Source of the DNA: Leptotrichia buccalis C-1013-b
GTDB lineage: Bacteria; Fusobacteriota; Fusobacteriia; Fusobacteriales; Leptotrichiaceae
NCBI RefSeq assembly: GCF_000023905.1
Contig: NC_013192.1
Coordinates: 992,001 to 1,056,000, forward strand
Length of the DNA stretch: 64,000 nt
Direction of reading: 5' to 3'
Below, one piece after another: positions 11,261 through 49,414 of the stretch (position 1 is the stretch's first letter; every line of letters begins with the position of its first letter). The translations under genes and the position numbers were made by a program. Under the pieces are notes generated by a model. The model made no database searches. It was not told the origin of the DNA and worked only from the letters and a program-made list of their open reading frames with translations.

Positions 11261-12991
11261 TTAATGTACTTTTACCTTCCCACCTTTTATATCTGTTGTT
11301 CCTGCTCCATCTCCTATGGAAACTTGTCCTCCTGTCGCTGACAATTTTGCACCTCCTTTAATGTCAACACTGCTATTTCCCTTAACATTGACATTATTAG
11401 GATCTATTGTTACTTTAGAACTTCCGACAACTGAATTTACAGATTTTGAACCTATAACATTTACGTTCGATGTTGTTGAGATAACCCCTACGTTACTTCT
11501 TCCTGCTACATTAATCGTTCCTGAAGATTCCATACTTATAACATTACCAGTATTCATAGTAAATTTTTCACTGTCTAAAGTAAAATCATACATCGGTTTC
11601 CCATTATTCGCCCCACCTTGACTATTCCCCAAAGTAAAATTCCTTTTATCAGGATTTGTAAACCTTCCATTCCCATCATTATTAACCGCACCCAGCACTA
11701 TTGCATGTGTTTCATTTCCATTTGGAAAATAAAGTGCTACCCTATCATTTACTTCTGGTGCTGGTGTAAATCCTGTATTACTTTGACTATATGGAGTTAC
11801 ATAAGGAAAATAACTTTTCCCAGCATATTTATCCTCAAATGACTGTCCATTTTCTCCTAATTTTAACAATCCTTCCGTTAAATTCAATGTCATTACAGCT
11901 ATATCACTCGCTTTAACTCTTTCTTTTACATTTTCATTCTGATTTTCAGCTTTTTCTATATATTTATTAAGCGGTTTTGCTCCAATCTTTCTTCCCTCAA
12001 GATTATCTGAATTTCCATCAGTCCTTCCATGATTACTCTTGCTTTCATCTGTTCTTGCAATATGGACTGTTCTTGCTTCTATTACTGCTCCTCTTATCTT
12101 TTCGTGTGGTATTGGATCTATAAAGTAGTCTGTCTGTTTTCCAAGTGTGTATTCGCATTTTAAAGTATTTCCTTCGTTGTATATTCTGCTTTCTATAACA
12201 TAATAATCGTTTTCAGTTTCTTCTCCGCCTGCCCTGTTTCTAGTCTTTAATTTTATTGGGGTTGAAACAGGATATACTTCTGTTCCTGTTATTTTGTACA
12301 TTGTCCTTTTATTTTTCTTGCTTTTTCCATATTGGGAATATGTTGTATTCGGTGTCTGCACAGCCTGATTTTTCAAAAATCCAACTAGGACTTTATCATA
12401 ATAAGGCATTACTGGCTGTCCTGTATACGAAGCCAGTCTTTTTAGATATTCCCAGTCTGTTTCATTATACTGGATTGTCATTCTTGGGACTTCTTTCATA
12501 TCTTCTCCCACGCTTATTATTTTTTCTCCATTTGCCCCATAATTTTTATTAATTTCTTCAGCTATTGCTGAATAAGTTAGTGAAGGATCCTGAAATGAAC
12601 GGTATCTTGGTATTCTGTCAAGAATAATGCTTTTAGAAATACAGGTAATTTCCACTACTAAAGAGCCTGTCTTAATTTCAGAAAGTTTGATATCGTCAAT
12701 TATCCCATTTAAAAATATTTTATCATTTGAAGTTCCGTTTTCATTTGAAATATTGCTTCTTCCAGAAATAATAATTTTAATATCCTCATCCTTGTCTATT
12801 GCGGCATCATAAATACTTATCTGCTGTAAAGAAGCTATGTACTTTATTTTCCCAACAGTATGCTCCCCAATTTTTGAATCTATTTTTAAAGTCATATCCC
12901 TCCACAATATTTGCTGCCCATCAATTTCTATTTTTATTCTTTCTGCTGAAAAAAATTCCACTGGTTTCTGATTTTGCAAGATACTGTTCAT
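11261..12991 (-). CDS. VgrG/phage gpD-like spike protein with long beta-helix tail
   Basis: This 576-residue spike protein begins with the family signature KPVEFFSAERIKIEID. Its central gp5-like OB region contains GENGQSFEDKYAGKSYFPYV and VALYFPNGNETHAIVLGA. The tail differs from the other copies: instead of the Ser/Ala-rich helical end it has a repetitive beta-helix-like stretch (INVAGRSNVGVISTTSNVNV, VDIKGGAKLSATGG) that would lengthen the needle and present the PAAR-like tip. It heads the cassette YwqK-like, PAAR-Hint-toxin, immunity. A conventional ATG with a GGAGTGA site sets the start. Confidence 0.85.
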   Translation of the reverse strand: MNSILQNQKPVEFFSAERIKIEIDGQQILWRDMTLKIDSKIGEHTVGKIKYIASLQQISIYDAAIDKDEDIKIIISGRSNISNENGTSNDKIFLNGIIDDIKLSEIKTGSLVVEITCISKSIILDRIPRYRSFQDPSLTYSAIAEEINKNYGANGEKIISVGEDMKEVPRMTIQYNETDWEYLKRLASYTGQPVMPYYDKVLVGFLKNQAVQTPNTTYSQYGKSKKNKRTMYKITGTEVYPVSTPIKLKTRNRAGGEETENDYYVIESRIYNEGNTLKCEYTLGKQTDYFIDPIPHEKIRGAVIEARTVHIARTDESKSNHGRTDGNSDNLEGRKIGAKPLNKYIEKAENQNENVKERVKASDIAVMTLNLTEGLLKLGENGQSFEDKYAGKSYFPYVTPYSQSNTGFTPAPEVNDRVALYFPNGNETHAIVLGAVNNDGNGRFTNPDKRNFTLGNSQGGANNGKPMYDFTLDSEKFTMNTGNVISMESSGTINVAGRSNVGVISTTSNVNVIGSKSVNSVVGSSKVTIDPNNVNVKGNSSVDIKGGAKLSATGGQVSIGDGAGTTDIKGGKVKVH

Positions 12992-23391: not shown

Positions 23392-24178
23392 ACCTTTCTA
23401 AAAGTTCCCTTTTAAAATAAATAATCTTTTTTATTTCATCTGTTTCTTGTTTATTAATTAATTTAATTACATCATCAACTTTTAAAGTTATTCCTTTATT
23501 ATCAAATAAAATAAATCTTTCATATTCAAGATTTAAATTTTCCCATTCTATTTTATATTTATTTCTAATTTCTTTTTTTAACTTTTCTTTTTTTAATTTC
23601 AAATAATTAATTCTTCCTTTTATTGTATTAATTCCATCATTTTTACGGTGATCTAACAACATAGGAATTGAATATGAAACAATTTCTTTTATATCTAATT
23701 TCTTATTAGATAGATCATTATAAAATAGGTTGTAAAATCTTCTTTTTTTTATAAAAATAGTGAATATTTCATTATTTTTAACTAACTTTCTAAAATTATT
23801 TAGCATTGCAAAAGTTAATTTTAAATTGGCATTTTCAATTTTTTTAATTTCTTCTTGTACTAATTCTATTTTTATTAAAATTTCTTCAACATTTAAAATT
23901 CCAACTAATTCAAAATTTTCATTTACTAATATCTCTAATTCATCAAAAATAAAATTTTTAAAAATTTTTTCTTTTAAATATTCTGTTCTATATAAATGGT
24001 ATTGTTCCTTAATTCTATAAACACAATATCTCTTTGCTTCATATTCTACCTCTGATAATTTTTCTAAAATGATATCACACTGTTCATCATCTTTTAATTG
24101 GTTATTTTTAGTATTAATTTCAAATAACTTTACATATTTATATTTTTCTTTTACTAAATTTTCTGTAACTTTATTCAT
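23378..24178 (-). CDS. Hypothetical spike-linked protein
   Basis: This 266-residue protein is rich in Lys, Glu, Ile and Asn, with a likely coiled coil around residues 185-225 (INYLKLKKEKLKKEI). Its start overlaps the stop of the spike gene by 8 bases (translational coupling), and its end overlaps the next adaptor-like gene. No domain was recognised. Tight coupling to the spike gene suggests that its product binds the spike or its cargo. It lacks a signal peptide. Confidence 0.55.
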
Positions 24179-25835
24179 TAATTAACACCTTACCTCCAGC
24201 TGCAACTTTAGAAGTCCCAGAAGAAATAATAGTTGTGTTATTATTTGAGATCAAAGTTGTATTTTCAGTAGATGTATTATTGATATTTTGAGCAATTATA
24301 GATTTTACTCCTTGTATCATTTCAGAATAATTTTTAGCACTATTACTTATATTCCCCGCACTCTCTGAAATACTGTCCGCACTTTCCGATATACTACTAG
24401 CAGTCTGTGAAATTGAACTTGCCGCACTTGTTGACAAACTATTAGTCGCAAGCACCATATTAAAGTCCGAATCCCCAACATGATAATTCCTGTTGGCCAC
24501 ATCAGTAAATCTACCATTTCCATCATTATTAACCGCTCCTAAAACTATTGCATGTGTCTCATTTCCATTCGGAAAATAGAGTGCCACTCTGTCATTTGCT
24601 TCTGGTGCTGGTGTAAATCCTGTATTACTTTGACTATATGGAGTTACATAAGGAAAATAACTCTTTCCAGCATATTTATCTTCAAAAGACTGCCCATTTT
24701 CTCCCAATTTTAGCAATCCTTCCGTTAAATCTAATGTCATTACAGCTATATCACTTGCTTTAACTCTTTCTTTTACGTTTGCATTTTGATTTTCAGCTTT
24801 TTCTATATACTTATTAAGTGGTTTTGCTCCAATTGTTCTGCCTTCAAGATTATCCGAACTTCCATCAGTCCTTCCATGATTACTCTTACTTTCATCTGTC
24901 CTTGCAATATGCACGGTTCTTGCTTCTATTACTGCTCCTCTTATCTTTTCATGCGGTATTGGATCTACAAAATAATCTGTCTGTTTTCCTAGCTTGTATT
25001 CGCACTTTAAGGTGTTTCCTTCATTGTATATTCTGCTTTCTATTACATAGTAGTCATTTTCCACTTCTTCGCCTGATACTCTGTTTCTAATTTTTAATTT
25101 TATTGGGGTTGATACTGAATACACTTCCGTTCCTTCTACCCTGTAATATGTTCTTTCCTCCTCCGTTTCCTTTCCAAAATATGAGTATGTCAAGTTTGGT
25201 GTCTGTGCTGGCATATTCTTGAAAAATCCTACTAAAACTTTGTTTGAGTTTGCCATCAATGGTTGTCCTGTATACGACGCTATTCTCTTTAAGTATTCCC
25301 AGTCTGTTTCATTATACTGGATTGTCATTCTTGGGACTTCTTTCATATCTTCCCCTACATTTACCAATGTTTCTCCATCATTATAATTTTTATTCACTTC
25401 CTGTGCTATATCTGTATACGTAAGTGTCGGATCCTGAAATGAACGGTATCTCGGTATTCTGTCAAGAAGTATGCTCTTTGAACTGCACACTAACTCAACT
25501 GCCAACGCTCCTGCCTTTGTTTCCTTTATCCTAAATTTACTTATCACTCCATTTAAGAATATTTTATCTGTAGCATTTCCTGCTTCGTCCGATATGTTGC
25601 TTCTTCCTGTAACTACTATTGTCTTGTCGCCTTTTTTATCTATCAGGGCATCGTATAAACTTAACTGATTTGGTGATGCCATATATTTTATTTTCCCAAT
25701 TGTATGTTCCCCTATTCTTGAATCTATTTCAAGATTCATATCTCTCCAAAGTATCTGCTGTCCATCTATTTCTATCTTTATTCTTTCAGCTGAAAAAAAT
25801 TCCACTGGCTTTTGATTATTTAAATTATTCTCCAT
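24171..25835 (-). CDS. VgrG/phage gpD-like spike protein
   Basis: This 554-residue spike has the same N-terminal signature and OB core (KYAGKSYFPYVTPYSQSNTG) as the other copies. The tail is a Ser/Ala-rich helical stretch (SSISQTASSISESADSISES) that ends in a short beta strand rich in Asn and Gly. It shares this tail type with the copy at 34156, but the last 60 residues differ. It heads a cassette of two adaptor-like genes, a PAAR-like effector and a lipoprotein. The start ATG follows a GGAGTGA site. Confidence 0.85.
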   Translation of the reverse strand: MENNLNNQKPVEFFSAERIKIEIDGQQILWRDMNLEIDSRIGEHTIGKIKYMASPNQLSLYDALIDKKGDKTIVVTGRSNISDEAGNATDKIFLNGVISKFRIKETKAGALAVELVCSSKSILLDRIPRYRSFQDPTLTYTDIAQEVNKNYNDGETLVNVGEDMKEVPRMTIQYNETDWEYLKRIASYTGQPLMANSNKVLVGFFKNMPAQTPNLTYSYFGKETEEERTYYRVEGTEVYSVSTPIKLKIRNRVSGEEVENDYYVIESRIYNEGNTLKCEYKLGKQTDYFVDPIPHEKIRGAVIEARTVHIARTDESKSNHGRTDGSSDNLEGRTIGAKPLNKYIEKAENQNANVKERVKASDIAVMTLDLTEGLLKLGENGQSFEDKYAGKSYFPYVTPYSQSNTGFTPAPEANDRVALYFPNGNETHAIVLGAVNNDGNGRFTDVANRNYHVGDSDFNMVLATNSLSTSAASSISQTASSISESADSISESAGNISNSAKNYSEMIQGVKSIIAQNINNTSTENTTLISNNNTTIISSGTSKVAAGGKVLINE

Positions 25836-29727: not shown

Positions 29728-30663
29728 TTATTTATTTTCTATATCCTGTAATCTTCTAAACGAAACTTCATTATCTCCTAAATCAATGGCTTTTTGATAC
29801 CATTTCTTTGCTTCTTCATAATTCCCTTCCATTTCATAACAATATCCTATTGCGGAAGTAGCTACTTTTTCACTTCGCTTAGCGCCTATTAAATAATATT
29901 TTCTACATTCTTTATAGTTTTTTTCTTGTATATAAAGATTTCCCAGAAAATATGCAGAATCAATATTTCCTTTCTCCACTCCTTTTTTATAAATATTTAT
30001 AGCTTCATCTTTTTTATTTAATTTTTCTAATAATAATCCCCAACCCATATAACCATCTGAATATCCTTGTTTTATCATTTGTTTATATATTTCAAAACTT
30101 TTTTCATATTCTTTTTTCATATTAAAATAACTTGCCTTTCGTAACATTAAATTACTTTCATCTCCCTTTTCTCCTAATTTTTTTAATATTTTTTTAGTTT
30201 TTTCATCATTTCCTTTTTCAACATATAAAAATATTAAATTATTTTTGGAATCAATATCTCCATTTTTAGCCGCTATCAAATAATATTTTGTTGCATTTTC
30301 TATATCACCTTTTTGTTCATAATAATATGCAAAATTATGTGTTGCTGGACTTATTCCTCTATCCGCCGCATATTTTGCCCATTTTTCATAATTTGCATAA
30401 TCTTTTTTATTATAATAATATTCTGCAAGATAATTCGAGGCTTCTGGCTTATCCTTTACTATTCTTTCAAAGTAAAGCATTGCCATCTCGGGATTGCTTC
30501 CATAATAAATTCTTCCATTATCATACATCTCGTTTATATCTCTTGTTGTAGGATTTTTCCCTATTTTTTCAATATGTTCCTTTGCCATTTGTATTTGATT
30601 TTCTTTTTGACTACAATTAAACACTGTGAAAATTATCAATACAATTAATAATAATTTCTTCAT
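29728..30663 (-). CDS. TPR/Sel1 lipoprotein, array copy 2
   Basis: This 311-residue lipoprotein has signal peptide MKKLLLIVLIIFTVFNCS and TPR/Sel1 repeats. About the first 150 residues are nearly identical to copies 3 and 4 (for example AAKNGD following EQKGDIENATKYYLI), while the C-terminal half has its own sequence. This pattern fits toxin-specific variation at the C-terminus. Its end (GYCYEMEGNYEEAKKWYQKA) resembles that of copy 4. Confidence 0.75.
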   Translation of the reverse strand: MKKLLLIVLIIFTVFNCSQKENQIQMAKEHIEKIGKNPTTRDINEMYDNGRIYYGSNPEMAMLYFERIVKDKPEASNYLAEYYYNKKDYANYEKWAKYAADRGISPATHNFAYYYEQKGDIENATKYYLIAAKNGDIDSKNNLIFLYVEKGNDEKTKKILKKLGEKGDESNLMLRKASYFNMKKEYEKSFEIYKQMIKQGYSDGYMGWGLLLEKLNKKDEAINIYKKGVEKGNIDSAYFLGNLYIQEKNYKECRKYYLIGAKRSEKVATSAIGYCYEMEGNYEEAKKWYQKAIDLGDNEVSFRRLQDIENK

Positions 30664-30830
30664 TCTCTATCTACTCCCTTTTTTTACCTTTTATTTCAAC
30701 TTTTTTTGTTAATTCTAAATCATTATCCATTTTTAATATTGTTTTTTCGTAGACATTCTTAATTTTCTTGTTTTCATAATAAATTTTTAAATTATATGAA
30801 AATAAAAACAAATTAAGTTTAGCTTCATCA
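30262..30830. repeat. Direct repeat unit of the lipoprotein array (copy in lipoprotein 2)
   Basis: About 570 bases covering the 5' half of the lipoprotein gene, its ribosome site and the tail of the preceding gene are nearly identical here, at about 31597-32160 and at about 32912-33452. The repeat starts inside the lipoprotein reading frame and ends inside the preceding gene. Recombination between copies would therefore swap lipoprotein C-termini and preceding genes. Confidence 0.85.
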
Positions 30831-31021
30831 CATACCATTGTATCAGCCTCTTCTTTTGCTAATGATTTAAGCCCTGTTCTTTTTTCTTCTTCTCTTCTTT
30901 GTACTTCCTTATAAGTTGAAAAAATATCTGGCATTTCTGGTCTTTTCAAATGTCTTACTTTTTTTAGTTATGCTTCTATTGTTAAGGATGTAACACCTGT
31001 TTTCTCATCTACTATTTCCAT
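30671..31021 (-). pseudogene. PAAR-like gene remnant 2 with fused C-terminal tail
   Basis: The gene start MEIVDEKTGVTSLTIEA is followed by an in-frame TAA where the relative at 29710 has a Gln codon. The frame then continues LKKVRHLKRPEMPDIF and ADTMVCDEAKLN, then joins the shared tail NLKIYYENKKIKNVYEKTI and ends KGKKRE. The first stop and the loss of the PAAR body mark it as a relic. A product from the ATG at 30949 (92 residues) is possible but unlikely to be a PAAR tip. Confidence 0.65.
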
Positions 31022-31034
31022 TAATTATTCACTC

Positions 31035-31997
31035 CTAATCTTTTTGATATTTTAGTTTTTCTTCCATTTCTTCTATTTTATATTTTTGGCTTTCTAATCC
31101 ATTATTAACAGCTTTTTTATACCATTCTTTAGCTTGTTTATAATCTCCTGTTTGTTCCTTACACCAAGCAATGGCTCCCATACTATATTGATTGTAGTGC
31201 TTATCATTTTTTTCTAAAACCATAAAATAATACTTTTCTGCTTCTTTATAATTTTTTTCTCTAACATATATATTACCTAAAAGACACATAGAGTGGATAT
31301 TTCCTTTCTCAATCCCCTTTTTATAAATATTTATAGCTTCATCTCTTTTTCCCATATCATTTAATAAAAGTCCCCATCCCATATAACCATCTGAATACCC
31401 TTTTTCTATCATTTTTTTATAAATTTCAATACTCTTATTGTATTCTTTTCTTCTTTTATAATGAGAGGCTTTTCGTAACATTAATTCATTTTCCGTTCCT
31501 TCTTCGCCTAATTCTGCTAAAATTTTTTTAGTTTCTTCATCATTTCCTCTTTCAATATACAAAAGTATCACATCATTTTTCGAGTCCTTATCTCCATTTT
31601 TAGCCGCTATCAAATAATATTTTGTTGCGTTCTCTATATCACCTTTTTGTTCATAATAATATGCAAAATTATGTGTTGCTGGACTTATTCCTCTATCCGC
31701 CGCATATTTTGCCCATTTTTCATAATTTGCATAATCTTTTTTATTATAATAATATTCTGCAAGATAATTCGAGGCTTCTGGCTTATCCTTTACTACTCTT
31801 TCAAAATAAAGCATTGCCATCTCGGGATTGCTTCCATAATAAATTTTTCCATTATCATACATCTCGTTTATATCTCTTGTTGTAGGATTTTTCCCTATTT
31901 TCTCAATATGTTCCTTTGCCATTTGTATTTGATTTTCTTTTTGACTACAATTAAACACTGTGAAAATTATCAATACAATTAATAATAATTTCTTCAT
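31035..31997 (-). CDS. TPR/Sel1 lipoprotein, array copy 3
   Basis: This 320-residue lipoprotein has the same signal peptide and N-terminal repeats as copies 2 and 4. The C-terminal half is distinct and ends in a Lys/Glu-rich helix (KYKIEEMEEKLKYQKD). It probably faces the periplasm. It is separated from the remnant downstream by 13 bases. Immunity is inferred from its place in the array. Confidence 0.75.
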   Translation of the reverse strand: MKKLLLIVLIIFTVFNCSQKENQIQMAKEHIEKIGKNPTTRDINEMYDNGKIYYGSNPEMAMLYFERVVKDKPEASNYLAEYYYNKKDYANYEKWAKYAADRGISPATHNFAYYYEQKGDIENATKYYLIAAKNGDKDSKNDVILLYIERGNDEETKKILAELGEEGTENELMLRKASHYKRRKEYNKSIEIYKKMIEKGYSDGYMGWGLLLNDMGKRDEAINIYKKGIEKGNIHSMCLLGNIYVREKNYKEAEKYYFMVLEKNDKHYNQYSMGAIAWCKEQTGDYKQAKEWYKKAVNNGLESQKYKIEEMEEKLKYQKD

Positions 31998-32004
31998 TCG
32001 TTAT

Positions 32005-32352
32005 CTACTCCCTTTTTTTACCTTTTACTTCAACTTTTTCTGTTAATTCTAAATCATTATCCATTTTTAATATTGTTTTTTCGTAGACATTCTTAATTTT
32101 CTTGTTTTCATAATAAATTTTTAAATTATATGAAAATGAAGACAAATTAAGTTTAGCTCCATCACATACCATTGTATCAGCCTCTTCTTTTGTTAATATT
32201 TTCATTCCTGTTTTTTTTCTAATTCTTTTTGTATTCTTTCTTGAGATGTCATTAAAATATCTGGTTTTTTAGGTGTTCTTAAGTGTCTCACTTTTTTAGT
32301 TGCTTTCATATGTCTTATCATTAAACCCTGTCTCTTCATTTATTATTTCCAT
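32005..32352 (-). pseudogene. PAAR-like gene remnant 3 with fused C-terminal tail
   Basis: The start MEIINEETGFNDKTYE matches remnant 1, then a one-base change near 32305 shifts the frame. The following frame reads KKVRHLRTPKKPDILM and ADTMVCDGAKLN, then the shared tail NLKIYYENKKIKNVYEKTI. As in the other remnants, the PAAR body and any toxin are absent. Only the last 66 residues form an open frame with an ATG (32205). Confidence 0.65.
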
Positions 32353-32367
32353 AATTTAATACCCTTC

Positions 32368-33312
32368 TTACTTATTTCCTATGTCTTGTAATCTTTCGGA
32401 CGCAAATTCCTTTTCACCTAAATCAACAGCTTTTTTATACCATTTCTTTGCTTCTTCATAATTCCCTTCCATTTCATAACAATATCCTACTGCAGAAGTG
32501 GCTCTTTCATCTTTTTTCTTTTTTTCTAATCTTATTAAATAATGTTTTCTTGCTTCTTTATAATTTTTTTCTATAAGATATTTTGCTCCTAGTTCAAAAG
32601 CTGCTATTGAACTGCCGTTGTTCATTGCTTTTTCTAGTATTTTTTTCCCTTCTTCTTTCTTACCTAAATTTTCATAAAATAAAACTCCTTTTTCTGTGTA
32701 GCCTTCCACTTCCCCTTTTTTTATAAGATTATCGTAAATTTCTAAACTCTTATCATATCTTTCTTTTGTCTTAAAAAAAGAAGCTTTTCTAATTAAAAAA
32801 TCATTTTCAGTATCTTTTTCGCCTAATTCTTTCAAAATTTTCTTAGTTTCTTTATCATTTCCTCTTTCAAAATATAAAAGTTGTAAATCGTTCCGTGAAT
32901 CTTTATCTCCATTTTTAGCCGCTATCAAATAATATTTTGTTGCATTTTCTATATCACCTTTTTGTTCATAATAATATGCAAAATTATGTGTTGCTGGACT
33001 TATTCCTCTATCCGCCGCATATTTTGCCCATTTTTCATAATTTGCATAATCTTTTTTATTATAATAATATTCTGCAAGATAATTCGAGGCTTCTGGCTTA
33101 TCCTTTACTATTCTTTCAAAGTAAAGCATTGCCATCTCGGGATTGCTTCCATAATAAATTCTTCCATTATCATACATCTCGTTTATATCTCTTGTTGTAG
33201 GATTTTTCCCTATTTTCTCAATATGTTCCTTTGCCATTTGTATTTGATTTTCTTTTTGACTACAATTAAACACTGTGAAAATTATCAATACAATTAATAA
33301 TAATTTCTTCAT
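32368..33312 (-). CDS. TPR/Sel1 lipoprotein, array copy 4
   Basis: This 314-residue lipoprotein is nearly identical to copies 2 and 3 over the signal peptide and first repeats. The middle and end differ (EKDTENDFLIRKASFFKTKE), and the final repeat is close to copy 2. It begins 7 bases after the adaptor-like gene at 33320. It is the first lipoprotein of the array in transcription order. Confidence 0.75.
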   Translation of the reverse strand: MKKLLLIVLIIFTVFNCSQKENQIQMAKEHIEKIGKNPTTRDINEMYDNGRIYYGSNPEMAMLYFERIVKDKPEASNYLAEYYYNKKDYANYEKWAKYAADRGISPATHNFAYYYEQKGDIENATKYYLIAAKNGDKDSRNDLQLLYFERGNDKETKKILKELGEKDTENDFLIRKASFFKTKERYDKSLEIYDNLIKKGEVEGYTEKGVLFYENLGKKEEGKKILEKAMNNGSSIAAFELGAKYLIEKNYKEARKHYLIRLEKKKKDERATSAVGYCYEMEGNYEEAKKWYKKAVDLGEKEFASERLQDIGNK

Positions 33313-34155: not shown

Positions 34156-35826
34156 TTATCCATTAATTAATACATTACTTCCACCATTTACTACTGAAAA
34201 ACCACTAGAATTAATTGCTGTATCTCCATTTGACTGTATATTTGTATTTCCTTGAGATACTTGTAAAATTTCATTAGCTATTAGAGTTTTACTTCCTTCC
34301 ACAATTTCAGAATAATTTTTAGCACTATTACTTATATTCCCAGCACTCTCTGAAATACTGTCCGCACTTTCAGATATACTGCTAGCAGTCTGTGAAATTG
34401 AACTTGCCACACTTGTTGACAAACTGTTAGTCGCAAGCACCATATTAAAGTCCGAATCTCCCACGTGATAATTTCTATTAGCTACATCAGTAAATCTTCC
34501 ATTTCCATCATTATTCAAAGCCCCTATTACAAAAGTCTTTGTTTCATTCCCATTGGGAAAATAAAGTGCTACTCTGTCATTTACTTCTGGTGCTGGTGTA
34601 AATCCTGTATTTGTCTGACTATATGGAGTTACATATGGAAAATAACTTTTCCCAGCATACTTATCCTCAAAGGATTGCCCATTTTCTCCCAAATCCATAA
34701 GCCCTTCTGTTAAATTTAATGTCATAACTGCAATATCTTTTGTCTTGACTTTTTCTTTTGTATTTTCATTCTGATTATTTTCAGTTTTCTCTATATATTT
34801 ATTAAGTGGTTTTGCTCCAATCTTTCTTCCCTCAAGATTATCCGAACTTCTATCACTTCTTCCGTGATTGCTCTTGCTTTCATCTGTTCTTGCAATATGC
34901 ACTGTTCTTGCTTCTATTACTGCTCCTCTTATCTTTTCATGCGGTATTGGATCTACAAAGTAGTCTGTCTGTTTTCCAAGTATATATTCACATTTTAATG
35001 TGTTTCCCTCATTATAAATTTTATTTTCAAGAACATAGTAATCGTTTTCTACTTCTTCTCCTGACACTCTGTTTCTAGTCTTTAATTTTATTGGTGTCGC
35101 TACTGGATAAACTTCTGTCCCTGTTATTTTAAAATATGTTCTCTCTTCTTTTGTTCTTTTCCCAAATTGAGAATACTTTAAGTTCGGCGTCTGTGCTGGC
35201 ATATTCTTAAAAAATCCTACAAATACCTTATCTGAGTATGCCATTACTGGCTGTCCTGTATATGAAGCCAATCTTTTTAAATATTCCCAGTCTGTTTCAT
35301 TATACTGGATTGTCATTCTTGGTACTGCCTGCATATCTTCACCAACATTTACAATTTTTCCATCATTTGTACCGTAATTTCCATTTATTTCCTCCGCTAT
35401 CGCTGAATAAGTTAATGTTGGATCTTGAAATGAACGGTATCTCGGTATTCTATCCAAAAGAATACTTTTTGAAATTGCTGTAATTTCTACTGTCAAGGCT
35501 CCTGCTGTAGTTTCATTTATTTGAAGCTCTTTTATTACTCCATTTAGAAATATTTTTTCTGTTGAATTTCCAGTATTATCAGCAATATTACTTCTTCCCA
35601 GTATTTTTATCTCCTTATCCCCTCTTCTGTCTATCAAGGCATCGTATAAACTTAACTGGTTTACTGAACCAATATACTTTATTTTCCCAATCGTATGTTC
35701 CCCTATCCTTGAATCAATTTCCAGTTTCATATCTCTCCAAAGTATCTGCTGTCCATCTATTTCTATTTTTATTCTTTCTGCCGAAAAAAACTCCACTGGC
35801 TTTTGATTATTTAAATTATTCTCCAT
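34156..35826 (-). CDS. VgrG/phage gpD-like spike protein
   Basis: This 556-residue spike carries the signature KPVEFFSAERIKIEID at its N-terminus and the OB core KYAGKSYFPYVTPYSQTNTG at about 385-405. It has the Ser/Ala helical tail shared with the 24171 copy and a short closing beta strand. Its first 247 codons are almost identical to the spike fragment at the left edge of the window, while the rest cannot be compared. It heads the lipoprotein-array cassette and follows an FHA gene by 27 bases. Confidence 0.85.
   Translation of the reverse strand: MENNLNNQKPVEFFSAERIKIEIDGQQILWRDMKLEIDSRIGEHTIGKIKYIGSVNQLSLYDALIDRRGDKEIKILGRSNIADNTGNSTEKIFLNGVIKELQINETTAGALTVEITAISKSILLDRIPRYRSFQDPTLTYSAIAEEINGNYGTNDGKIVNVGEDMQAVPRMTIQYNETDWEYLKRLASYTGQPVMAYSDKVFVGFFKNMPAQTPNLKYSQFGKRTKEERTYFKITGTEVYPVATPIKLKTRNRVSGEEVENDYYVLENKIYNEGNTLKCEYILGKQTDYFVDPIPHEKIRGAVIEARTVHIARTDESKSNHGRSDRSSDNLEGRKIGAKPLNKYIEKTENNQNENTKEKVKTKDIAVMTLNLTEGLMDLGENGQSFEDKYAGKSYFPYVTPYSQTNTGFTPAPEVNDRVALYFPNGNETKTFVIGALNNDGNGRFTDVANRNYHVGDSDFNMVLATNSLSTSVASSISQTASSISESADSISESAGNISNSAKNYSEIVEGSKTLIANEILQVSQGNTNIQSNGDTAINSSGFSVVNGGSNVLING
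35085..35826. repeat. 742-base duplicate of the left window edge
   Basis: This stretch aligns base for base, without gaps, with positions 1-742 and shows only scattered substitutions. It covers the N-terminal third of two spike genes 35 kb apart in the same orientation. It would allow gene conversion or deletion of everything between. Confidence 0.9.
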
Positions 35827-40705: not shown

Positions 40706-41176
40706 TTATGCTTCCTGAGCAGCATATCCACCTTCAATTGCAACTTCCTTAACTTTCTCTTTTTTCTGTTTGATTTTCAATGAGAATGTTCCAGTCCCTG
40801 CCTGATTTCCATAGGCCTCTTCGTAATCAACAACAAACGCATTTGCCATATCAATTTTTCTTACCATTTGTCCTGCGGATATTACCTCTAATGATACAGT
40901 TCTATATGCATCACTAGATTCAGCAGGTACTAATGACCATTGAGCAACCTTTCTTGTATCATCTTCGGCATCTCCATTTGCAGCTGCCTAAATTTTTCCT
41001 TTAATTTCAATGATAATATTTATTCCCAAATCAGTTGCTCTTGCGTTTGAATCATCAGGTGATTCTGAAAGAAATTTAACATCCAAGGTGCTTTCCTTTT
41101 CTAACAAAATTTCTTCTCCTTGTCCTTTTACGTCCTAAATTGCAAATTTTTGAAATTTGATTTTAATTTCTAACTT
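40706..41176 (-). pseudogene. Probable tail-tube gene, start lost and two in-frame TAG codons
   Basis: One frame of about 155 codons can be read from the stop at 40706 back to the TAA that ends the nuclease gene (41177-41179). It contains TAG at 40988-40990 (after IEIKGKI) and at 41135-41137 (after KFQKFAI). Between them the sequence is coherent: GQGEEILLEKESTLDVKFLS and, downstream, NAFVVDYEEAYGNQAGTGTF. The composition fits tail-tube/Hcp-like beta barrels. No ATG lies in frame above the first TAG. Loss of the 5' end, with the nuclease gene directly abutting, points to disruption. Identity as tube is inferred. Confidence 0.55.
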
Positions 41177-42835
41177 TTATTTACTGACAACCTTCACACT
41201 TTTACCATAAAACGCTATGCCAAGTTTCAAAATATTTTTTATTCCTCTAGCCTTCAACCTTGTATCGTATTTTTTCTCATCTATTTGCTTCAAAGCCTCT
41301 TCTGCCTTTGCTCTCATTCCTTTTTCAGTTTTTGAAATTTTAAATTCCATAAGAAAAGCCTTCTCATTGCTTTTTACTGGTATCATCGCCAAATCATACC
41401 TTCCATATCCACTCTCATTATTTGAAATAATTTCATATTTTCCCATCAAAAAACCAACAAGCCCTATCATAAATACCTGATAAATTTTCTCCATTTCACT
41501 ATCCAAGTCAAAATGGCTTAACATATTTATCATTATTTCACCTAATGTTTTCTCAAATTTTTTAATATCTCCATTTTCAAGTGCTTTTATCAAAATACTT
41601 GTCTTTACTTCCGTTCCAAAAAATCTATTCAAAAATAAATTTCCAAAATAGCTTCTTATTTCCCTGTTTGGTATTTTCAGATTATAAGTATTTTGGAACT
41701 CCGTTCTTTCTGGCTGTTCTTCAGCTTTTGTCAAATATCCGCTATATAAAAATAACTGCCATATTTCATCATCCCTGCTCAAAATACTTTTTATTGTAGT
41801 CCCATCCGAAATATATTTTTCAATACTCTCTCCATCAGTAAATTTTTTTAAATCAGCATAAACACTTTCTCCAGCGTAATCAAGCATATTTTCTAAAAAC
41901 GTATTTCCAGAAATATTTGCCCAATATGCTTTTATCTCTTGATTATCAATAAAATTTACAATAGACCAAGGATTGTATACTTTATTGTCTCCAAAAATAT
42001 ATCCGTTATACCAAGTTCTGACTTCTTCCATTTTATATTCCATCTCAAAGCAATCAAGCATTTCAACCACTTCATTTTCAAGAAGCCCAAAATACTCAGC
42101 ATACCTTTTGCTTAATACCGTATCCACTTTCAAATTATTTAATCCTGAAAAAATTCCTTCCTTTATTATTCTTGTTATCCCGGTCAAAATTCCATATTTC
42201 AAGGAATCATTTGTTTTTAATGCGGAACTATAAAACACTTGAAAAAAGTTTATTGCTTCATTATAATATCCGTTATTAAAAGCATTTATTATCGGTGCAT
42301 CATATTCATCTATCAAAATTATTACTTTTTTACTGTAATATTTATTTAAATATTTTGACAAATCCAAAAGAGAAGTTTTAAAATTTTTTTCGTTACCTGT
42401 CATTTCCCAAATTTTATCAAATTGTCTTTTTTCAACGAAATTTAATTTTTCTCTTAAAAATTCATATTCATTAAAAACTTTATACATAATATCCTTAAGA
42501 CTTTCAAGACATTCTTCCCAACTATTCTCCTTCAAATCCTTTAACGAAATAAATATAACTGGATATTTCCCTTGTTCACTCATATATTTACTATCAGATA
42601 TTTTTAAATTTTCAAAAAGTTTTCTATTTTCTTCTTTGTTCTCAACATCAAAAAAATATTTAAGCATTGACATATTAAGCGTTTTTCCAAATCTTCTTGG
42701 CCTTGTAAATAATATTACTTTTGCTTTATTTGCTAATATTTCATCTATCAAGAATGTTTTGTCAACATAATAATACCCTTCTTCCCTTAATTCTTTATAA
42801 TTTTCAATTCCTACAGGAATTGCCTTTTTATTCAT
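41177..42835 (-). CDS. AAA-ATPase-like protein with PD-(D/E)XK nuclease domain
   Basis: This 552-residue protein has an N-terminal AAA-ATPase_like domain with TRPRRFGKTLNMSM (Walker A, about 42-55) and YYVDKTFLIDEIL just before it. The C-terminal nuclease-like domain has SGYGRYDLAMIP and FLMEFKIS (the D and E-x-K of PD-(D/E)XK). This family is highly multiplied in Fusobacteria and Bacteroidetes and is of unknown use. It has its own strong GGGAGG site and promoter. It lies between the decayed injection locus and the conjugative segment and seems to have arrived separately. Confidence 0.85.
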   Translation of the reverse strand: MNKKAIPVGIENYKELREEGYYYVDKTFLIDEILANKAKVILFTRPRRFGKTLNMSMLKYFFDVENKEENRKLFENLKISDSKYMSEQGKYPVIFISLKDLKENSWEECLESLKDIMYKVFNEYEFLREKLNFVEKRQFDKIWEMTGNEKNFKTSLLDLSKYLNKYYSKKVIILIDEYDAPIINAFNNGYYNEAINFFQVFYSSALKTNDSLKYGILTGITRIIKEGIFSGLNNLKVDTVLSKRYAEYFGLLENEVVEMLDCFEMEYKMEEVRTWYNGYIFGDNKVYNPWSIVNFIDNQEIKAYWANISGNTFLENMLDYAGESVYADLKKFTDGESIEKYISDGTTIKSILSRDDEIWQLFLYSGYLTKAEEQPERTEFQNTYNLKIPNREIRSYFGNLFLNRFFGTEVKTSILIKALENGDIKKFEKTLGEIMINMLSHFDLDSEMEKIYQVFMIGLVGFLMGKYEIISNNESGYGRYDLAMIPVKSNEKAFLMEFKISKTEKGMRAKAEEALKQIDEKKYDTRLKARGIKNILKLGIAFYGKSVKVVSK

Positions 42836-42887
42836 AAAACCACCTCCCTAACAAATATAAAATTCATCTAAAAATAGAAATAATACA

Positions 42888-42914
42888 ATTATATTGTAAT
42901 ATAGTATACATCAA
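42888..42914 (-). promoter_or_regulatory. Promoter of the AAA/nuclease gene
   Basis: On the minus strand TTGATG (plus 42909-42914) and TATAAT (42888-42893) are 15 bases apart. They lie about 50 bases above the ATG, which is preceded by GGGAGG (42841-42848). The -10 box is perfect and the -35 box is good; the spacing is a little short. Confidence 0.6.
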
Positions 42915-43018
42915 AAAAAAGAAAAGAGCAACACCTAAAAAATTAATCATTTTTCTCTGTTACTCTCACTCTAAAAACACAAACTTAAATTCTTTTAATT
43001 ATTTATCAATATTTTACA

Positions 43019-46000
43019 TTATTTCTCAAAATCATCATTATCCAAATCCTGAATATCCTCTTTTTCCTTAATCTCTTCCTTCTCTTTCATTCCCTCCTCT
43101 ATCAATTTATTAACCTCGCTTAATCTTTCAATCTTTTCTAATAGTAAATCTGCTTTTTCAAAAGGCTTATTAACTTCTTCTTTTGCATTAGAAAATTCTT
43201 CCCTGTAATTTTCAAGCCTTGCCTTTTCTTTTTCCAGTTTTTCAGGAATTTTATCTAACAAATTATCCATTCTCGTTATATTTCCAATTGAATCTTTCCC
43301 AAAATCAGTATAATATTTTTCTTTGTTTTCCAATACACATTTATATTTTTTCTCATAGAAGTCAAAATTTGAAGACAGTTTAAATCCTCTATAATTTCCA
43401 ATAATTTGAGGCTCATCAGATATTCCAGTACCCTTTATAGCTTTTAAAAGCTCTTCTCCAGCTTCTTTTTTATCATAAATTTTGGTTCCGTTAATTTCAA
43501 TAGATGTAAATTTATCCTCATTATTTGATTTTGGCTCTATTTTAGAAATATCTTCCTTCACATTTTCAATATATTTTTCCATTTTACTAATTTTTACAGG
43601 ATATTCCTTTGTTATTTTATCCTCAAGACGATATAAGTTTGACTTGTAATTGGCTTCGAGCATTCTTAACTTATTTACTTCCATATCTAAATCCATTTTT
43701 TCCTTAATTAAAGGATTTCCAGTTGCAAGTGCCTTTATTTCAGCATAGTTTAAAGAGCTTTCATCAACATCTTCTGCTACTCTGACTGGAGTTTTTGAAG
43801 TCATAATTTGGCTTATAAACTTTTGTTTATTCTCAATAGTTTGCCATAAGTAAGCATCAAATGTATTCTCGGTAACATATCTATAAATCTCCACTTTCTT
43901 ATTTTCATTCCCCTGTCTGACTATCCTTCCTGCCCGTTGTTCCAAATCTGAAGGACGCCACGGAACATCTAAGTCGTGAAGTGCAATTAATTTTGTCTGT
44001 ACATTTGTTCCTGCTCCCATTTTTTGTGTTGAACCTAATAGTATTCTTACATCTCCTGTTCTTACTTTTGCAAAAAGTTCATCCTTTTGCTTTTCAGAAT
44101 TTGCATTATGAATAAATGCTATTTCTTCGTCAGGAATACCTTTATTAATCAACTTTTCCTTTAAATCTTCATAAATATTAAAACTTCCATCGTTTTTGGG
44201 AGTAGACATATCAGAAAATACAAGCTGTGCAGATTTTTTCCCAACGCTTTCTTTCCATATATTGTAAATATTTTCTACGCAGGCATTTACTTTGCTATTT
44301 TCATCATCAGGAAGCATTTCATTTACAAGCCTCTGATCTAGTGCAAGTTTTTTACCGTCATTTGTAATTTTTAACATATTGTCTTCTGTTGGTTCTACGT
44401 TTCTGTTTCTTACTTCTTCTGCTCTTTCTGAAAGACTTTCTAATATTAATTTCTGTTCCTCTGTTGGTTTAGTCAATACTTTTTTATACTCTACTTCAGG
44501 TGTTGGCAAATTTAGCATATCAGCAGTTTGTATATCTGCAAACTGTTTGACATTGTTCATAAGTTCAGGAAGATTATAGAATTTTGCAAATCTTGTTTTA
44601 GTTCTGTAGCCGTTTCCTTCAGGAGATAATTCAATAGCTGTAACTGTTTCCCCAAATGTGCTTGCCCAGGAATCAAAATTTTGATGTCCTTGTTTTTTGA
44701 GTTCATCATACTGTAAATATCTTTGCATTGTATAAAGTTCCGACATAGTATTGGAAACTGGTGTACCTGTTGCAAATACGACTCCTTTTCCATTTGTTAT
44801 CTCATCCATATATCTACATTTCATAAACATATCCGATGATTTTAATGCTTCAGTTTGTCCTATTCCTGCCACATTTCTCATTTTAGTGTATAAAAACAAA
44901 TTTTTAAATGAATGCGCCTCATCTACATACAGCTTATCAACTCCTAATTCTTCAAATGTAACGACATTATCCTTTTTAAAATCATCATTTAATTTTTTTA
45001 GTCTTACTTCCAGTTTCTTTTTTGTACCTTCAAGCTGTTTTACAGTAAAATTCTGATTATTTTCCTGCTTTAATGTTTGGATATTTTGTATAATCTCATC
45101 TATTTCATTTTGTATATGTTTTTGCTGATAATCCTTACTCATCGGTATTTTTTCAAACTGAGAATGTCCTATTATTACAGCGTCGTATTCTCCAGTCGCA
45201 ATTCTTCCAATGAATCTCTTTCTATTTTTAGGTTCAAAATCCTTTTTAGTCGCCACAAGAATATTTGCTCCTTGATAAAGTTCCAGAAATTCCCTTCCCA
45301 GCTGTTCCGTTAAATGATTAGGGACTACAAACATTGATTTTGTTGCAAGTCCAAGTCTTTTAGATTCCATAGCGGAAGCGACCATTTCAAAAGTTTTTCC
45401 TGCTCCTACAACGTGTGCAAGCAGTGTATTTCCACCATACAATGTTCTTGCAACTGCATTTAACTGATGTAGCCTTAATTTTATTTCAGGATTTATGCCA
45501 TTAAAAGTAAGATGGCTTCCATCAAATTCTCTTAAACGGATTGAATTAAATTTTTCGTTATATATTTCAGTCAGCTCATTCCTTCTTTCCAAATCCCTAA
45601 AAATCCAGTCCTTAAAAGCCTGTTTAATTATATCCTGTTTTTGTCCTGCCAGCATTGTTTCCTTTTTATTTAAAATTGCTATTCTTTTACCTTCTGAATC
45701 TGTTTCATAATCAAAAATTTTTGTATCTCTCAAGTTCAGTGCATCTTCTATAAGTTTATATGCATTTGCCCTTTCAGTTCCAAAGGTCATAACAGCGAGC
45801 GGATTATCATTGTCTATATTCTTGTTTTCTATTCTCCATTCAGAAGTATATTCAGAATAATGTACTTTAATGTATGAACTCTTATATGCTGGTGTCTTTA
45901 ATGTTTCCACAATAAAATTCTTTATATGATTTTTAGGAACCCAAGTTGCTCCAATTCTGACATTTATCTCGCTTGCTTCAAGTGGCTTAGGCATTACTTC

Positions 46001-49000
46001 TTGCAATTTTTCTTTTTGAAAATTTAGTATTTCAGAACTTATTCCATTTTTTTCTTCATCAGAAAGAGAATTAAATTTGTCAATATATTCTATTTTTTCT
46101 CTTATATTTCCACTTAAATATTCATCCTGTGTTACATATTGAAATTCCTGTGGAAAATCTTGATTTATATCAAGAAATATTTCCCCTTTTAAACTGTCAA
46201 TTAACTCTTCTTTTTTCATACCAGTAAGATTTGTCATATATTCAAAATCCACTTTTGCCTTTTGAGAAATTGAAAGGATTAATGCTTCCTGCGGAGTATC
46301 TACTTTATCTATAACTTTTGATTGCTTTATAGTTCTTTTGGAAAAAATATCTCCTTTTTTTTTAAAGTTTCCACGTTCATCAAATATTTCTATTGAAGAT
46401 AATAAGGAATAATTGGAATCTTCAGTAAATAATCTCGAATTTGCTCTTGAATTTAAGTATCCATACTTATTAATAAATCCATCATATATTCTATTTAGTT
46501 TTTCCTGTTCAATTTTTAGTCTATCATCTGTTTCCCCGTCTTTTTGAATTTGAATAACTTTTCTTAATGAAGATGTAAGTTCTATATACTTTGATATTTT
46601 ATCCTTATCTCTATCTGATAAATCTTGTAATATCATTTCACTATTTTCTTTAAAATAAATATCGTTATCTTTTTTGAAAAATGAAAAATTCCTTATTTCA
46701 TAATTTTCATTTTCAACTGCAATTACATTTTCTTTTTCTTCAGCGAAAGTTTTTTCATAACTTCCTTCTATATTCCCAACCGCTTTTTCTAATTCATCTT
46801 TTAAATTACTATTTTCTTTCGGCACACAAGTCAATGTTTTCCCAAAACGTCCACTAACTTCCTCCATTTTTCCTAAAACCATATCAGGATTATCTACAAA
46901 ATACTGATTATATACAAATCCTTCAGAATCAGATTTAACCGCATACCAGTCCTGCTCCTCTTTATTTGTATTTTCCCTTTTCTTTAAAAATATAATATCC
47001 GATGTTACTTCAGTTCCAGCAACACCTTTAAATGTATCATTTGGAAGCCTTATTGCCCCTAATAATTCCGCTCTTTCTCCAATGTATCTTCTTACACTGT
47101 CATCCTTTTTATCAAACGTTCCAGAAGAAGTTATGAAAGCCATAATTCCGCCTTTTTTTACCTTATCCAACGATTTTGCAATAAAGTAGTCGTGTATCAT
47201 AAAGTTCAGTTTTTCATATTCTCTGTCCATTACCTTAAAATCTCCAAACGGAACATTTCCTATTACAACATCAAATGAATTGTTGGAAAATTCTGTTTTT
47301 TCAAATCCTTTTACTTGAATATTACTTTCAGGATAAAGTTTTTTAGCAATATTTCCGCTGACACTGTCTAGTTCTACACCATATATCTTTGATTTTTCTA
47401 ATTCATCAGGCAAATTACCTATAAAGTTTCCCACACCACAACTTGGCTCTAAAATATTTCCGCCTTCAAATCCAAGCTGCTGTATTCCTTTATAAATGGA
47501 ATCAATTACTATTTTAGGAGTATAAAAAGCTGTCAATGTACTTGCCTTAGCATTATCATATTCTTCCTGTGTCAAATTTTCTTTTAAAAAATTTCTTGCT
47601 TCTTCCCATTGTCCACCTTTATTTTCATCAAATACATCGGCTAATCCTCCCCAACCAACATATTTAGAAAGTGTTATCTTTTCATCATCTGTAGCTTTTC
47701 TTTCACTCAATTTTTTTAAAACTTTTATAGCTTCAATATTATTGTTTAGACGCTCTGACGGCAATAGTTTTTCAGATTGGATTTCTTCAGTAATTTTAAA
47801 ATTTTTAGAAATATTATCTTTACTATTTTCTTCATCTGCATAAGGATGTATTATTTCATCATTTTCAATAATATTTTCTGTTTCCTTTTCAGGAATAAAA
47901 TATTGATTTTCATCTATAAGTTCCTGTATCCTTTTTTCTATCTTATTCCAAGACAGGACTACCTTAACTTCATTAGCACTAAAATGATTTTTATATAACT
48001 TCATATTTTGGGAAGTATAAAAGGCATCATCAATAAAATCTCCACGGTCAGGTATTGAGAAGCCGCCTATTCCATATTCCTGTTTCAAATATTTTATTCT
48101 ATCTTCCTTTGAACTGTTATCTTGAAAAAAATTATAGATAGATTCCGCTCCGCTGTATGATTTTAATACATCATCGATATTCTTTTGAGTAATTATATTA
48201 TCATTTTCTATTTGTAAATTATCTGATTGTAAGTTATTTCCCTGAGAGAAGAGAGTAGGCTGTTCATAAGTCCTACCCATTCTATTTGATCTTTTTCTTT
48301 TAATTTTTCGGTTAATCCCATAGTTTTCATCATTTTGGGTTTTTCTATCTCCCAAAATTTCTCCACTTCTGCCTGAATTGAAAATAGATGTTCCATAACT
48401 TCTCCCTTCATTAGAAGATTTTTCAAAAATTCCGCTTTCTCTTGTTCCAAGTATTTCATTCTCGCTCGTCCCCAAGAGTTGAGTTTGCTCAAGTCTATTT
48501 CTTCTTCCTCCAAATTCGGAACTAACACTTGAAATTTTTTGTCCAGCAATATCATTTTGTAAGTCCCTCCCATCTGTTCGTAGGATGTTTGCTTCACTAC
48601 TGGAGTATATATCCCGTTCTCTATCAGATATTCTTTCCCGTCTATCATCTTTTTCAGCATATTCCAATTCCTCCTCATTTTTTTCATTTTCTATCTCATA
48701 TCCAATTTTGCTATTTTGTTCTAAAGTTTTTTCATTATTTATTTTTTGAATTTCTTTGCTTACTTTAATTAAAACTTTTTTAACTACATTAGATATTTCT
48801 AATGATATTAATTCCATAGTTCTAAAATCTGAAAACAAGGAATAAATCTCTTTTTCCTTTTCATTAAATATATCCTTTTTATTAATTCCCATCCTTTGAT
48901 CAAGTGCGATTAAAACAGATTTTTTGATAAAACTTTCAAGAACTTCTGTATCCTTGTAGTTAAAAGTGTCTAATTTGCTGTTTTCAAGCATTGTCTGGTT

Positions 49001-49414
49001 TATAAGTTCCATTTGTGCTTCTTCAAAATCTGATTTTCCTGTCATTCTTTCAAAAACATCCTTATGAGTTCTATTATTAAATTCCCATAATTTAGGTTTT
49101 TCATCGTTTCCCTTATCTAAAGATACTGTCTGTGTAACATCAAAAATATATCTGACATTCTTTTTTCCACTTCTTATATTATATATAGGTATTCCTTTCT
49201 GATTTCTTTCTACAACTCTGTTAAAGTTTTCTTTCCAAAAGTCATATTCTGCACAGGCTACAGCTTCAGGACGAATAAAAAATATATTTAACTGATCCAA
49301 TGCAGAGTATTTATAATTGTTTCCTACGACATGAAGATAGTTAATATATTCACTAAAATCTTCATTTATCTTTTTATGTGCATTTTCCAATACAGTTTGA
49401 ATCTTATACCCCAT
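43019..49414 (-). CDS. Giant adenine methylase / SNF2-type helicase of conjugative elements
   Basis: This 2131-residue protein has a DNA adenine methylase domain (about 630-840) with EPSCGVGNF (SAM motif) and NVPFG (catalytic NPPF type). An SNF2-like helicase follows, with Walker [11 protein letters not shown] (about 1335), YVDEAHSF (about 1495), ATGTPVSN, and the C-terminal helicase motif [10 protein letters not shown] (about 1830). The N-terminus carries a short domain typical of such plasmid proteins ([15 protein letters not shown]). A charged, disordered linker fills about 220-480. These proteins are common cargo of conjugative elements and may modify or protect the transferred DNA. They could act as an anti-restriction or an addiction-like factor. 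Shadow frames inside are not genes. Confidence 0.9.

Follow-up and report, generated by a model that had tools for sequence, protein, structure and literature searches.

A decayed injection-type locus and a conjugative element lie side by side in the genome of Leptotrichia buccalis C-1013-b, separated by a single intact gene, raising the question of whether this gene marks an insertion boundary, is itself a mobile gene, or has a function of its own. The region was analysed as a 64,000-nucleotide window (G000:C1:992001-1056000, from the single 2,465,610-base contig of genome G000), and positions refer to this window unless another contig or locus is named. The gene (41177..42835, minus strand) is an intact open reading frame of 552 amino acids encoding, on profile, motif and model evidence, an AAA/STAND ATPase joined to a PD-(D/E)XK nuclease. 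Its placement in a preliminary description of the sequence was confirmed: the locus with the VgrG-like gene lies to the left, and to the right a DarB-like antirestriction gene (43019..49414, minus strand; profile match) is the first gene of the conjugative-element side, followed by T4SS genes (TrbE/VirB4-like and TrbL), with this side extending to an integrase gene at G000:1070.6 kb.

Profile searches of the 552-aa protein returned PF09820 (AAA-ATPase_like; E 1.2e-53, 182.3 bits, curated cut-off 26.1) and PF08011 (PDDEXK_9; E 5.2e-21, 75 bits, curated cut-off 25.5) as the sole Pfam domains, and no transposase domain was found. Both domains exceed their curated cut-offs and all motif residues are kept, placing the protein in the DUF1703 family, to which a nuclease domain and an AAA+ domain with a variant Walker A motif were assigned in 2007 (PMC1913061). 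An alignment of 43 sequences located the Walker A variant at residues 45-52 (42680..42703, minus strand), with the family-invariant string RPRRFGK, and the Walker B region at 42302..42319 (minus strand); the PD-(D/E)XK nuclease domain (41186..41494, minus strand) was assigned by profile, alignment and fold. Walker A K51, Walker B D176 and E177, and nuclease D481, E497, K499 and Q517 are invariant in 43/43 sequences, and the core is under purifying selection (window copy versus the L079 copy, dN/dS about 0.14). The gene is an intact member of a widespread ATPase-nuclease family with a resemblance to immune receptors.

The distribution of the family is patchy and multi-copy. Of the copies in genome G000, five are intact, one contains a stop and one is a fragment, and relatives were present in 29 of the 40 genomes searched, with up to 17 matches per genome; a 76.8% match to the gene is present on a plasmid record (38,144 bases) of Leptotrichia sp. 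oral taxon 221. The family had been described as one of Fusobacteria and Bacteroidetes; it is indeed widespread, but it is not restricted to those groups, since relatives occur in Clostridia, Selenomonadales, Aminicenantes, Dependentiae, Elusimicrobia, Parabeggiatoa and others, one Clostridia genome having 38 family matches, fragments included. A phage association was considered and set aside: the 34 phage records matched were all named 'Bacteriophage sp.' and, among the 30 listed, were unannotated, so that carriage was not established, and the 24 viral-contig loci entered the analyses as sequences only. Loci L065, L066, L067, L070, L072 and L081 show a variable region in which AAA-nuclease copies are interspersed with small orphan genes that recur, a zeta-toxin-like gene and a nitroreductase gene; three of the six also have gltX nearby. 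IS605-type TnpB genes (L063 11565-12662, L286, L073 ~16.7 kb and L074 ~7.85 kb) adjoin AAA-nuclease copies or directly follow a truncated copy.

The left side of the junction consists of a tube-like pseudogene (40709..41134, minus strand), recognised by comparison with intact loci, in which codons 6-145 remain, the start and first five codons are gone and in-frame stops are present. The AAA gene was earlier thought to have its stop codon fused to this broken frame; the in-frame stop is there, but the 42 bp past the AAA stop (41135..41176, minus strand) form a 3' tail that junction alignment showed to be common to four junction copies and part of the AAA unit, the tube homology starting at 41134. 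The terms 'tube-like' and 'sheath-like' are labels taken solely from the preliminary description and from position, as the intact 145-aa and 721-aa relatives gave no Pfam, PHROG or convincing PDB-sequence match. The intact injection-type locus, found in G005 (L060) and G009 (L062), has a 721-aa ORF, about 42 bp, and a 145-aa tube-like ORF, while in G000, G001, G002 and a second G005 locus the AAA gene and its 42-bp tail immediately precede codon 6 of the tube-like gene. The 721-aa ORF had no match in the window or in the junction loci examined; in G005 an 81% relative lies ~9 kb from the junction. The same AAA/tube junction in four genomes, together with the intact order in G005 and G009, therefore indicates one shared replacement event, in which an AAA gene with IS30 debris at its 5' side would, on a single occasion, have taken the place of the sheath-like gene of an injection locus and of the beginning of its tube-like gene. 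The window contains VgrG-like gene parts repeated along the injection locus (alignments of the relatives' gene at 1-773, 11261-12991, 24171-25835 and 34156-35826) and, at 29728-33312, a tandem of three like-sized ORFs (311-320 aa), each with an opposite-strand 111-aa ORF.

On the other side of the gene, the 5' flank (42836..43001, minus strand) is held in common with an AAA relic in G008, and the portion up to ~42941 is also present in G001, G002 and G005. Within this flank, the beginning of an IS30-type transposase gene survives as a remnant (42905..42946, plus strand; type recognised by eye rather than by profile). A site-specific cargo end at 'GTGTTGC' (~42941), suspected since four genomes diverge there, was rejected because the sequence belongs to the start of the IS30-type transposase gene, found elsewhere, and homology to the G008 relic continues to 43001. 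A left-hand AAA-nuclease fragment far to the left of the injection locus (G000:980614-980943; L083 8614-8943) was considered as the second end of an element, and reads as an unrelated copy because it lies beside autotransporter-like fragments, like the G012 copy beside an autotransporter-like gene. The gene had also been credited with its own promoter, for which no support was obtained: no promoter-like match was present on the minus strand from 42836 to 43019, and the region as a whole had 16 matches compared with 13.7 (sd 3.5) in shuffled sequence.

Further upstream, the DNA is different in each of the four junction genomes: G000 has DarB/T4SS genes; G001 has conjugation genes and, beside tRNA-Phe, an integrase-like gene (identified by eye); G002 has an IS605 TnpB element at that tRNA cluster; and G005 has an integrase-like remnant beside a TrmA-like gene (both by eye). 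Under the replacement model, the derivative now lies beside different element or integrase DNA in the four genomes. A MITE-like hairpin repeat of ~60 bp (CATAGTAAGAATGAT ... ATCATTTTTACTATG) occurs at ~11.4 kb in L061, near an integrase-like remnant, and at ~14.0 kb in L063, near the tRNA cluster. The suggestion that the gene marks the insertion boundary is accordingly supported in part, the AAA/tube junction being shared and the sequence beyond it differing. Conservation of the neighbour order in distant relatives, which was to refute the preliminary description, was not seen, as the order was found only within the genus. Could the gene then be simple cargo of the conjugative element or the injection locus, placed by the integration of the element? 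The recurrence of one junction in four genomes, some beside integrase-like genes or tRNA-Phe, is what this would produce; however, G008 has a relic of this AAA unit, together with 166 bp of its 5' flank, at a different position, and close relatives (77-84%) are found in unrelated parts of the chromosome, so a boundary marker is already insufficient as a full account and is considered very improbable as the whole explanation.

Sites with and without a copy were compared in 13 genomes of the genus, a comparison with empty sites that the preliminary description had proposed. The recF site (between yaaA and recF, by eye; L087 3035-4657, G000:3035-4657; close to the contig start in several genomes) has a full-length copy in four genomes, a partial copy in four and none in five, and the partial copies decay by internal deletion; the L084 site is occupied in seven genomes and empty in six. 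No target duplication was seen at the empty recF and L084 sites. The short target repeats anticipated around 41,150 and 42,930 were likewise absent, as only short AT-rich matches, none bracketing the gene, were present, and no terminal inverted repeats, target-site duplication or fixed ends were found for the AAA-nuclease gene. Among 25 close copies, most comparisons between copies in different surroundings lose homology about 85-145 bp upstream and 8-25 bp downstream, with exceptions in which a pair shares less, or shares one flank further, and the ends of the unit differ between subfamilies. The idea that the gene is itself mobile thus holds in so far as single genes were gained and lost at two other sites, but the gene is not a transposon. 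Because there is no duplication, inverted end or transposase domain and the ends vary by subfamily, the gain and loss data are explained less well by transposition than by recombination and horizontal transfer of gene-sized units.

Comparison of the junction sisters showed that the gene is a mosaic. Over codons ~95-160, the window copy is 96-99% identical to that of G005, and both are 54% identical to G001 and G002, with downstream flanks 90-99% identical; mosaicism also extends beyond this segment, the window copy being ~79% identical to its three junction sisters over a part of the gene where the sisters are 93-99% alike. Alignments and the predicted model place an exchangeable helical cassette between Walker A and Walker B, at residues ~101-165 (42341..42535, minus strand; type 1 in the window). 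In 24 close copies, amino-acid differences average 0.48-0.53 over residues 101-160 compared with 0.02-0.31 elsewhere, and the cassette falls into six discrete types (29-60% identical between most versions), while the rest of the protein is 81-98% identical. With a sliding 62-residue window, 101/145 pairs were at or below 60% identity at residues 101-162, and none were for starts at or before 61 or at or after 141. Five pairs were examined for breakpoints, which recurred near codons 103 and 165. The N-terminal 40 residues were sorted into five groups, and several cassette types occur with each of two of these. In a site-compatibility test, nearby-site incompatibility was 0.367 compared with a permuted mean of 0.491 (sd 0.008), with 0/1000 permutations as low; the clade copy in L082, which is split by stops, was left out of this test and of cassette typing.

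A segment of this kind might result from exchange or from relaxed constraint, and since synonymous sites separate the two, pS values of cores and cassettes were compared. In a tandem trio of head-to-tail AAA-nuclease genes in G022 (L246, G022:C1:1751676-1756832), with near-identical cores and three different cassettes, core pS was 0.12-0.20 and pN 0.003-0.005, whereas cassette pS was 0.53-0.65 and pN 0.23-0.32. Two tandem pairs from another family of the order behaved in the same way, with core synonymous/nonsynonymous differences of 21%/0.8% versus 63%/47% in the cassette (G037) and 20%/1.7% versus 74%/42% (G033). The converse was seen between the tube-site copy of G001 (L059) and the copy at the VgrG-side site of G005 (L064), whose cassettes are identical (pS 0.00) in cores with pS 0.27. 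Among the Clostridia (29 usable copies from 30 loci), two Tepidibacter copies have a core identity of 0.83 and a cassette identity of 0.98, while the nearest core relative (0.97) of one of them has a cassette identity of 0.59. Exchange is not seen in every comparison: of 115 pairs with core pS below 0.3, cassette pS was at most 0.35 in 66 and at least 0.6 in 12, and several Lachnospiraceae pairs have kept cassette identity near 0.8. A segment of ~60 residues has been exchanged between copies, and the same is seen in Clostridia as well as in a second fusobacterial family.

Cassettes are almost never repeated within a genome. In 101 copies from 17 genomes, a chosen part of all matches (full-length only, limited to the regions retrieved), 46 cassette types were distinguished and 15/17 genomes had no type twice; one genome had 14 copies with 14 different cassettes, the highest count among those examined. 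One G037 tandem copy, absent from the first clustering owing to an identical C-terminus, is a distinct copy and is counted among the 101. A cassette type was held in common by 2/354 within-genome pairs compared with 119/4696 between-genome pairs. Permutation of labels gave p 0.003 in one subfamily (0/27 pairs) and p 0.13 in the largest (2/60), and orthology may be part of the reason why cassettes within a genome differ.

A fold model of the protein (43-sequence alignment, mean pLDDT 87.9), which is predicted and not solved, shows the cassette as helices (106-167) flanked by strands 93-97 and 171-176, the latter being the Walker B strand. The best VIA-align match to this predicted model is the archaeal STAND ATPase 2qen (PABY2304; Z 17.3, 4.2 A, 305 residues aligned), with a second, 2fna (SSO1545), at Z 16.7, both over residues 4-405; these are the closest solved folds over residues 4-399, although they share 14-15% identity with the 552-aa protein, and their chains have only 350-352 residues and therefore no nuclease domain of the present kind following. 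Plant NLR (resistosome), CED-4 and Apaf-1 (apoptosome) chains come next, and EfAvs5 (Z 11.3), Avs3 (Z 11.1) and TnsC (up to Z 10.6) lower in the list, which is a second look at Foldseek hits and does not exclude families missing from it. Residues 395-552 folded alone (pLDDT 82.5) matched the CidB/CinB nuclease domains (Z 11.6-8.6) and EcoRV (Z 8.0). The predicted fold is that of a STAND/NLR-like ATPase with a restriction-like nuclease. A STAND ATPase core is thus predicted in common with Avs and NLR receptors (Avs3 8dgc, EfAvs5 9jap, plant NLRs and CED-4); however, no C-terminal repeat sensor typical of these was seen, residues ~405-552 being the nuclease part, the variable part lies inside the nucleotide-binding domain, and no PADLOC family matched the 552-aa protein at E <= 0.1. 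Some Avs proteins carry nuclease effectors.

Several features have precedents in the literature. Proteins of the DUF1703 family have the same two domains, the RPRRFGK Walker A and the PD-(D/E)XK motifs (PMC1913061), and expansion to 25 paralogs in a Cardinium strain, with horizontal origin, recombination and unknown function, was reported in 2019 (PMC6387759); the accessible parts of these sources mention no discrete segment between Walker A and Walker B, cassette types or STAND/NLR fold match. Elsewhere, fragments of the family were treated as MITE candidates (PMC12039267), PF09820 was listed for RADAR, PARIS and Old-tin proteins (PMC10952713), and the domain pair appeared among the genomic neighbours of a Fusobacterium enzyme family (PMC11602996). 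The Wolbachia CifB proteins (CidB/CinB), which supply the closest nuclease fold, have the same architecture in their simplest build, an AAA-ATPase and a PD-(D/E)XK domain, but they have two nuclease domains and a CifA partner (PMC12445526), whereas no recurrent partner gene was seen beside the present family in the loci scanned. Sensors linked to STAND/NACHT systems are diversified by diversity-generating retroelements (DGRs; PMC10907252), which likewise act on a putative sensor in a STAND-type conflict system; DGRs, however, work by error-prone reverse transcription, and the present family by exchange of long-diverged cassettes between copies. No paper on an exchangeable segment in the PF09820/PF08011 family was found in the literature searched, which took in few subscription journals, and no experiment on any family member was found there.

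Taken together, the data are best explained, with moderate confidence, by an NLR-like STAND ATPase-nuclease with a ~62-residue cassette exchanged between paralogs and strains. The gene probably encodes a stand-alone STAND nuclease with an exchangeable recognition module, directed against phages or mobile elements, a function that we infer from its build and behaviour; a defence role is the most economical because the gene is dispensable, multi-copy, horizontally moving and of STAND-nuclease build. The lack of any PADLOC match counts against such a role, as does the lack of a visible association with defence islands among the neighbours scanned. Exchange of the cassette would take place by homologous recombination in the conserved DNA on both sides of it. 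The cassette would recognise something variable, such as a phage or plasmid product, or DNA; binding of this ligand would lead to nucleotide exchange and ATP-dependent assembly of the ATPases, and assembly would activate the nuclease, with destruction of invader or host DNA. The cassette could alternatively set partner, assembly or DNA-contact specificity.

An ordinary set of horizontally spread paralogs with an unrecognised housekeeping role, for example in DNA repair, with a loosely constrained cassette and a mosaic arising from frequent paralog recombination as in Cardinium (PMC6387759), appears rather unlikely. That other parts of the gene are mosaic too would be expected of such paralogs, as would the lack of a visible defence neighbourhood: among 136 of the 139 immediate neighbours scanned in 77 named loci, the most frequent Pfam family occurred 4/136 times, no recurrent partner gene was present, and defence hits were scattered, at most 2/136 per model, in a scan run without a background control. 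However, it is only the cassette that falls to such low identity between most versions while flanking DNA stays high, and the versions are discrete and conserved within a type, as in the identical cassettes of L059 and L064, unlike relaxed drift; copies are moreover absent at many sites. A selfish gene, whose AAA/nuclease protein cuts a target and copies its own gene into the break in a homing-like manner, with the cassette setting the site, is less probable still. Multiple patchy copies, single-gene gain and loss with empty sites, the short flanks shared by most non-syntenic copies of one clade and the TnsC folds of a transposition system in the fold list all suit such a gene. Cassette type does not track site, however: type 1 was found in four contexts (after pth in G001, G002 and G003, at the tube site in G000 and G005, after the autotransporter-like gene in G012 and at a further site in G006; names by eye), and at the tube site two genomes carry type 1 and the other two type 5, which disfavours cassette-targeted homing. 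The lack of fixed ends, terminal repeats and target duplication and the internal deletions in partial recF-site copies also speak against it.

The NLR-like ATPase-nuclease with an exchanged cassette gives a family with no function assigned in the literature found, despite its presence in many phyla and up to dozens of matches in a genome, a concrete hypothesis, built on a bounded exchangeable segment and an NLR-like predicted fold. Tentatively, at least two bacterial phyla may keep repertoires of NLR-like STAND nucleases in which a recognition segment inside the ATPase domain is reshuffled by recombination and horizontal transfer, amounting to combinatorial immune receptors without repeat sensors. 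If the cassette is a recognition module, these proteins would form a large unrecognised receptor family, and its natural variants would provide a ready series for finding the ligand.
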